Assembly: GCA_027623995.1 (NCBI GenBank)
Contig: JAQBUF010000031.1
Span: 1-36,258 of the forward strand
From: Nitrospirota bacterium
GTDB lineage: Bacteria > Nitrospirota > Nitrospiria > Nitrospirales > UBA8639
Length of the DNA stretch: 36,258 nt
Reading direction: 5' to 3'
The notes beneath the pieces are model-generated. The model did not search any database, was not told where the DNA came from, and saw only the letters and a list, made by a program, of their open reading frames with translations. Positions 19,035 to 33,985 of this stretch are shown here, piece after piece; position 1 is the first letter of the stretch; every line of letters starts with the position of its first letter. Both the position numbers and the translations under genes were made by a program.

Positions 19035-19289
19035 ATGGACACTATTGCCAATTACGCCATTCAAATTAAACCTCTATTATGGATTGTCCTTTCCATATTC
19101 GGAGGCATAGCCCTCCAACGTACCCGAACCGTGTCCGTCCTTATAATTGCTATCGGCCTTTGGATAGAGACCATAATTATTGTGTTAACACCAATATTTC
19201 CATATGAGATGCACCTTTCAAATGAAGGAGAACTATTGGAACAGAGTATGGGAATTCTGTTAATCGATTTTCAGATGATCGGAGATTAA
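19035..19289 (+). pseudogene. Small membrane protein interrupted by an insertion
   Basis: 84 codons: a hydrophobic protein with helices at about 12-28 and 34-53, then a polar part (LSNEGELLEQ) and another hydrophobic stretch. TAGGA precedes the ATG. The frame stops three bases into a short mobile element. Skipping from the first ATGATCGGAG (19275) to the second (19658) continues in frame as GGSVALFIIVIGTRLLNF and stop at 19720. This gives a 100-residue protein with a completed last helix, so the gene is disrupted. Function unknown. Confidence 0.75.
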
Positions 19290-19657
19290 TCGCAATTTTG
19301 GTGGAGTGAGGTGAACGCGTTGCTTGGTTATTCCTGTGACGGGGTCCTCCAGATCATGGCACCACGCCTCCTCTTTCGCACCCATCGCGTCGTCAAGTCT
19401 TTTCTGTAGCTGCAGCATCTCATGCTGCCTCTTCCAGACGTCAGCGGCCCATGATACGTAGAAAGAGGCGCGACCTGCCTGCGCGAAGCCGCTTCGGCGG
19501 AGGCTGGTGAAGATCGTGCAGCGACACAAAAAAGCCCACCGGAGGTGCCACCTCCACCAAATTTGCAACTGGTCCTTTTCCTCTACTGCCTCGCGAAGAT
19601 TTACGGCTAGGAATATGAAGGATGGGACCCTTGCTCCACCAAAATTGCGATTGATCC
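19285..19657. mobile_element. MITE-like element with inverted repeats and target duplication
   Basis: AATCGCAATTTTGGTGGAG at 19288-19306 is repeated as its exact complement at 19634-19652; with one mismatch the match extends about four bases outward. ATGATCGGAG lies in direct orientation on both sides (19275-19284 and 19658-19667), a 9-10 bp target duplication. A related inner copy of the end (CTCCACCAAATTTGCAA) is near 19549. The minus strand has a 139-codon frame across it that reads through the repeats; I do not trust it as a gene. The transposase family is unknown; 9-bp duplications occur in several families. Confidence 0.75.
19406..19527. repeat. REP-like pair (BIME-like), one half decayed
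   Basis: GTAG at 19406 is followed by the 7-3-7 palindrome GCAGCATCTCATGCTGC (19412-19428) and CTCTTCC. A reverse-oriented partial relative, GTGTCGCTGCACGATCTT on the minus strand, lies at 19527-19510. The same two types, also inverted, occur at 29508-29597. REP units (GTAG plus hairpin) are usually moved by RAYT transposases; none is here. Confidence 0.65.
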
Positions 19658-19794
19658 ATGATCGGAGGCAGTGTTGCACTTTTCATCATCGTAATTGGAA
19701 CAAGGCTTCTTAATTTTTAACCATAAAAAAATAGGGGAGCATTTCCAGACACCCGAGTCTCGAATTCGAGTCTTTTGTTGAGCGTTTCAAATTG

Positions 19795-20072
19795 ACAACC
19801 CTAGGCCTGTTTTTTTTGAGCTAGCCTCGCCTTCGGACGCGGCGGAGCTGGAGCCCCGAATCGACCTTTCCGGCGAGGGATGTTTGAGTCCTTCGGTAAT
19901 ACTCAGGATAGACTCCGCGAGTTCCCGAGCCCTCTTATTCGGGGCGGAAATGTAGGAACCCTGGAGGACCTGCTTCTCAGCAGGTTCGGAGGGGCTGCGT
20001 ACGGGCGAACATGGTTTTTGGCACTGTTGCCGAAACAAAAGTGCCTCTTCACGCGGGGACGAAATCCCGCTC
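19795..20072 (-). repeat. Structured repeat, copy 1, 3' of elbB
   Basis: On the minus strand, starting just after the elbB stop, the DNA forms a hairpin GCGGG/CCCGC (20053-20070). A second hairpin, GGCACTTTTG...CAACAGTGCC (20045-20020), has loop TTTCGG. Further on are AACTCGC, GGACTCAAACA and CGATTCGGGG. The same order and loops appear at 33781-33985 after another gene. A frame across it encodes EALLFRQ-like residues, a common artefact of this element. Confidence 0.65.
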
Positions 20073-29264: not shown

Positions 29265-29507
29265 TTCCTTACAAGACATACGCACGCAATACAGGCAGGT
29301 AGCGAAGACACCTTGCACAAAGGATTATTCTCTACCTGCCTCTTCTCCCACAAACACCCCCCCTCATTCCCCTGTGCCCTTGGATAGGACATTGAAAGGT
29401 GTAAATCGGATCATACCGAAAACATCGGGTTATCCCTACGGCCATCCAATCCTGGATTCATGGAATTTCTTCTCCCTGCCTCCTAATTCCTGCAAGCATT
29501 TTTTCTT

Positions 29508-29702: not shown

Positions 29703-29879
29703 AAATTCTGTATGATCCTGTAAATCCCCCGCTTCAAGAAACATATCTGAATTTGACCGTCTAAGACCCTGATGATACAGTCCATTCGCTCGATAAAACC
29801 GCAAAAAAATTCCCTTCTTCGTTGAATCCCTAGAATCCATGATTCTCAAGATACTTTTAGATATTGCCCGGACTTCACC

Positions 29880-33778: not shown

Positions 33779-33985
33779 AATGCAGGGTTTCGCCCCTGCA
33801 GACGAGGCCCTTTTGTTTCGGCAAAAGGACCCAAAACCATTCTTGCCTGTGCGCGGCCCTACGGGTGAACTCCGCCACCTTGCCGAATTAAGATGGCTCA
33901 GAAACTCGCTGGGCTCAAACAGTCTTCGCCAAAAAGTCGAATTCGGCAAGGCGGCTACGCCGCGCCCAAGGCGGGAGACCAGTAT
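33779..33985 (+). repeat. Structured repeat, copy 2, 3' of the SDR gene
   Basis: TGCAGGG-tttcgc-CCCTGCA (33781-33800) and CCTTTTG-tttcgg-CAAAAGG (33809-33828) are hairpins, followed by CCATTCTTGCC, AACTCGC, GGGCTCAAACA, TCGCC and TCGAATTCGGC. This order matches copy 1. In both copies it starts within 40 bases of a stop codon on the same strand. The remaining interval to 34060 has no gene. Confidence 0.65.

Follow-up and report, generated by a model that had tools for sequence, protein, structure and literature searches.

At position 19,283 of a Nitrospirota contig, a small hydrophobic open reading frame runs into a block of DNA that is bounded by inverted repeats and framed by direct repeats. 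What is this block, what brought it there, and did it break a gene when it arrived? The window analysed here is a stretch of 36,258 nucleotides (contig JAQBUF010000031.1 of assembly GCA_027623995.1), and an earlier sequence-only reading of it had proposed that a MITE-like element lies inside a small membrane protein gene that its removal would restore. The explanation that we favour, with considerable confidence, is a non-autonomous MITE that has ISL3-type ends and a REPIN for its cargo, the hairpins of which have recurrently gained or lost further palindromes at their tips. The insertion itself is genuine, if of an ordinary kind; the features discussed below are collected in Table 1.

A MITE with an 8-bp target duplication

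Both the inverted repeats and the 10-bp direct repeat ATGATCGGAG (19275-19284 and 19658-19667) are present in the sequence. They had been read as 19-bp inverted repeats within a 9-10 bp duplication, but comparison with sister copies, by which we set the boundaries of the element (MITE-A), gives 24 bp for the inverted repeats and 8 bp for the duplication, ATGATCGG; the AG that follows the latter constitutes the first two bases of MITE-A, which match the flank by chance. The two arms are identical at 22 of 24 positions. Their consensus is GGATCAATCGCAATTTTGGTGGAG, mutated to AGATTAATC... in the left arm of the window copy, whose first base has changed from G to A. The extra DNA at the right end of the long form has a 94% identical counterpart in genome G027 that terminates in the same repeat. 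Neither an Rfam search of the window nor a Pfam search of the frames inside MITE-A returned a match.

Table 1. Positions of the features discussed in the text, in window coordinates
Feature	Start	End	Strand	Remarks
Hydrophobic open frame, 84 codons	19035	19289	+	Runs into MITE-A; gene status unproven
Continuation of the 84-codon frame	19666	19720	+	Reaches a stop once the flanks are joined
Target duplication, left copy	19275	19282		8 bp, ATGATCGG
Target duplication, right copy	19658	19665		8 bp, ATGATCGG
MITE-A copy, long form	19283	19657	+	375 bp; alignment with nine other full copies
Left terminal inverted repeat	19283	19306	+	24 bp, AGATTAATCGCAATTTTGGTGGAG
Right (outer) terminal inverted repeat	19634	19657	-	24 bp
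Inner second right-end repeat	19552	19575	-	True right end of short-form copies
Extra right end	19576	19657	+	82 bp; only in the window, C41 and C44 copies
REPIN core	19405	19526		Two inverted GTAG-type hairpins
Left REP hairpin	19412	19428		GCAGCAT-CTC-ATGCTGC; tip empty in window copy
Right REP hairpin	19468	19519		Tip occupied by REP1
REP1	19474	19507	+	34-bp palindrome within right hairpin tip
MITE-B copy	29408	29718		Exact target duplication TGTAAATC at 29400-29407 and 29719-29726

The host genome holds eight further full copies of MITE-A (contigs C41, C44, C43, C65, C90, C13, C105 and C51) and several more ends that are truncated by contig edges. Outside this assembly, a public MAG contig filed as Phycisphaerae (L078, OFTM243) has one more full copy. 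An intergenic repeat of the host genome recurs on that contig, which makes misbinning probable; IS4-like transposase genes are present on it as well. That intergenic repeat is interspersed, occurring in the window at 19828-20070 and 33782-33859 and also in L004 and L018, with copies that are 73-78% identical and tend to read as spurious open reading frames (LFRQKDPKPF...).

A sister family, MITE-B, has ends of the GGATCATACGCAATATATGGTTCT type, unlike those of MITE-A, but shares the core of that family and resembles it in the inner flanks. Its copy in the window carries the REPIN core with empty tips. In total, 8-bp duplications flank ten full copies of MITE-A and 15 of MITE-B. Across these 25 elements of two families, the paired flanking 8-mers differ on average by 1.0 mismatch, compared with 5.34 for unpaired flanks, and 17 of the 25 pairs have at most one mismatch, a level of agreement reached by 0.33% of unpaired combinations. 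The matching drops at once beyond the 8 positions, and the flanking repeats exceed chance. The element has terminal inverted repeats, no transposase gene, multiple copies and a constant 8-bp duplication, as expected of a MITE, and the earlier proposal of an inserted, transposase-free element with REP-type DNA, including its expectation of further copies flanked by duplications, is supported.

Several variants were seen alongside. In MITE-B copies at L020, L162, L164 and L165, the terminal repeat is followed 26 bp further out by another one, paralleling the doubled right end of the window MITE-A. At two loci (L019:955-1345 and L026:2158-2290) MITE-B ends directly adjoin REPIN hairpins at GGCATAAGATG, which suggests that the MITEs also insert into REPIN hairpins. 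Another non-coding element of 520-540 bp with related ends, GGATCAGTTGCAAATTTGGTGGAG, occurs in G004, a genome of the same family (L062:1501-2018, L064:1501-2042).

Was a gene interrupted?

Joining the direct repeats yields a 303-nt frame of 100 residues that ends in FQMIGGSVALFIIVIGTRLLNF followed by the stop. To this extent the restoration that had been proposed is correct, as the frame does rejoin and reach its stop at 19720, but the gene itself did not gain support: there was no homologue, codon usage was ambiguous and chance frames of this kind proved common. The 100-residue frame found no homologue among 60 relatives, viral contigs, plasmids, Pfam or NCBIfam, and the 396 genomes of the phylum gave one weak partial match of 31% identity and no uninterrupted homologue. 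With no homologue found, neither the uninterrupted 100-residue homologues that the earlier reading called for nor the homologues ending at residue 84 that would have refuted it were encountered. Given these results, we put at about even the chance that the insertion is intergenic, the 84-codon frame having arisen by chance with no gene being broken. The empty searches favor this reading, as do a synonymous codon bias that resembles that of non-coding frames and the fact that frames of at least 60 codons cross 11 of 17 joined insertion sites, even though other copies sit between genes. On the opposite side, the frame has an ATG start preceded by a purine-rich AGG site, its three hydrophobic stretches have a hydropathy profile that would suit a small three-helix membrane protein, and its overall codon score of 0.053 falls between those of real genes (0.187) and non-coding frames (-0.097). 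We regard an interrupted gene at this site as no more than a possibility.

A REPIN as cargo

The core of the element exhibits the characters of a REPIN, namely a GTAG head, palindromic stems, an inverted pair of hairpins, compensatory changes, and a cognate RAYT flanked by such REPINs in a genome of the same genus (G002, locus L147; NF047646 at 85.4 bits against a cut-off of 80). Among 19 copies whose tips are empty, pairing holds in 97.2% of cells across both hairpins and the outer stem, and four REPIN stem pairs show compensatory changes where shuffling predicts 0.8. As single strands, both the window copy (z -3.3) and an empty copy (z -4.7) fold far better than shuffled DNA, the minimum-energy fold pairing the REPIN halves with each other and not as two hairpins. 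None of the four Y1 genes of the host is flanked by REP1 or REPINs. Because many host copies of the REPIN sit inside MITE-A or MITE-B, REPINs have travelled with DDE-type elements, and the inverted GTAG-headed hairpin pair, of the RAYT-associated kind, would have moved as cargo.

Palindromes gained or lost at one point of the hairpin tip

In the window, REP1 sits between CGA and TGA at the tip of the right hairpin, and in two other copies (C90 and C13) the left tip is occupied by a REP2-like palindrome. Across the host genome, REP1 is located at REPIN hairpin tips in 21 of its 25 copies. Twenty filled hairpins retain both stem arms intact. The inserts consist of REP1 in either orientation, of the 24-nt REP2, or of a REP1 whose loop in turn encloses a third palindrome, and the insertion point is the same across differing stems (GCACGA, GCGTCA, GCGCCA, GCGGCA). 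Filled and empty tips differ by neither a duplication nor a loss of target bases; in relatives, a test of the complementarity of the sequences flanking REP1 was weak when based on run length alone, and it was the direct comparison of filled with empty copies that settled the matter.

Repeated gain or loss has affected both the 34-nt REP1 and the 24-nt REP2, always at this one exact point. When 24 MITE copies are arranged in a tree computed with the inserts left out, at least 10 changes of tip state are required, about as many as with shuffled labels, and at least seven changes of REP1 are forced by well-supported branches. Close sisters with different tip states include C65 and C51, C107 and C86a, C69 and C20, and the window copy with C41 and C44. 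The REP1 palindrome also occurs in an unrelated hairpin, at GGCGA^GAACGCC, at 12 loci of other genera, beside 20 empty copies that we examined; this hairpin repeat is abundant, with up to about 150 matches per genome.

It is conceivable, although on balance unlikely, that the tips came to differ through conversion of one copy by another, or through REP1 being lost precisely, instead of by repeated insertion. The MITE copies are 75-98% alike and could convert, and parsimony alone cannot separate gain from loss. However, the point occupied by REP1 stays the same across REPINs with four stem sequences and in both orientations, REP2 takes its place there, other genera have REP1 at the tips of an unrelated family of hairpins, and REP1 is not surrounded by direct repeats that would promote its precise deletion. 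Gene conversion or precise loss could explain part of the tip changes. Repeated insertion into the tip without target duplication would fit an IS200/IS605-like HUH enzyme, and the most likely mechanism would be that such an enzyme, of the RAYT type, joins a hairpin, as single-stranded DNA, into the tip of another that is extruded. We put at roughly even the odds of the broader proposition that a hairpin-tip-specific process operates in this order, placing palindromic repeats of 24-34 nt into apical loops regardless of the stem and without target duplication, the nested hairpins then being spread by ISL3-type MITEs.

Which transposase moves the MITEs?

Members of the ISL3 family start with GG and generate 8-bp duplications, and the MITE ends show both properties. 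The terminal repeat of MITE-B matches the end of a 1427-bp element in the same-genus genome G002 (L106) at 22 of 24 bases, and this element encodes a 454-aa ISL3-family transposase (PF01610, E=1.1e-44; ISAon1 group NF049917, E=4e-120), although this particular copy is not clearly flanked by a target duplication. The match points to a DDE transposase of the ISL3 type as the likely mover. The MITE-A repeat shares the GGATCA..CGCAAT pattern with the ends of MITE-B and of the ISL3 element, with 15 of 24 positions identical when counted by eye. No autonomous element with MITE-A ends was present in 236 genomes of the order or among ISAon1-type hits, and the host genome yielded no transposase cognate to the MITEs; we rejected its only ISL3 gene as a source on account of the different ends of that gene. 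For these reasons the assignment to ISL3 is better supported for MITE-B, whereas for MITE-A it is one that we infer. Matches resembling the terminal repeat, GAATCAATCGC, beside a helicase gene in G227 and G035 turned out not to be bounded elements. An ISL3-family transposase of the ISAon1 group would presumably recognise the GGATCA..CGCAAT repeats in trans and paste the element into a staggered 8-bp cut, in this case within the hydrophobic open frame of unproven gene status.

The element might be mobilised not by ISL3 but by some other DDE family whose ends are G-rich and whose duplications measure 8 bp, although this is improbable. IS256 duplicates 8-9 bp, genes of this type are present in the host and the MITE-A ends have no exact cognate; nevertheless, matching ends were absent from the 30 IS256-type loci that we retrieved from the family, so that we rejected IS256 as the mover, and the ends of the sister family MITE-B match the ISL3 element. 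It is scarcely credible that the whole block is a REPIN moved by a RAYT with incidental outer repeats, for although its core is a REPIN and Y1/RAYT genes are present in the genus, it is the outer repeats, in 25 copies drawn from both families, that the 8-bp duplications adjoin, and not the REPIN.

Relation to known systems

The elements described here resemble IS-derived MITEs of the ISL3 family (ISAon1 group) in being short, non-coding, multi-copy and mostly intergenic, with terminal repeats that start with GG and an 8-bp duplication. They differ in that the host genome yielded no cognate autonomous element, in that a REPIN is carried as cargo, and in that the ends are sometimes doubled, as by the extra 82 bp at the right end. 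Their cores share with REPINs or BIMEs and their RAYTs (PMC3116915, PMC2817692, PMC3733652) the GTAG-headed imperfect palindromes, the inverted pairs of about 90 bp, the compensatory stem changes and a RAYT that is flanked by them, here in a same-genus genome; in contrast to those systems, many copies in this genome reside within MITEs of the DDE type and accommodate additional palindromes at the tips of their hairpins.

Nested palindromes have precedents. REP dimers within palindromes have been described (PMC3733652, section 7), as have palindromes within palindromes in Volvox organelles (PMC2670323), and insertion sequences target REPs at fixed points (PMC1525189). Common to these cases is mobile or repeated DNA landing in palindromes, sometimes at a fixed point. 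In our case, however, the inserted unit is itself a palindrome of 24-34 bp, the insertion point is exact, empty and filled alleles occur among near-identical copies, and two unrelated hairpins serve as hosts. In the searchable open-access literature we found no description of recurrent insertion of palindromes into hairpin tips in bacteria or of ISL3 MITEs carrying REPINs, and no mention of an ISL3 MITE or of the palindrome sequences.

While MITEs and REPINs are each known, here a REPIN is the cargo of a MITE, and therefore a DDE transposase can spread REP sequences in place of their own HUH enzyme. The recurrent insertion at hairpin tips is the notable part of this locus, and the nested insertions raise its interest above that of an ordinary MITE insertion. 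Filled and empty tips in near-identical copies constitute a natural experiment on the insertion of REP-type palindromes, a step that is poorly understood, and they predict a structure-guided, duplication-free insertion that would be testable in vitro.
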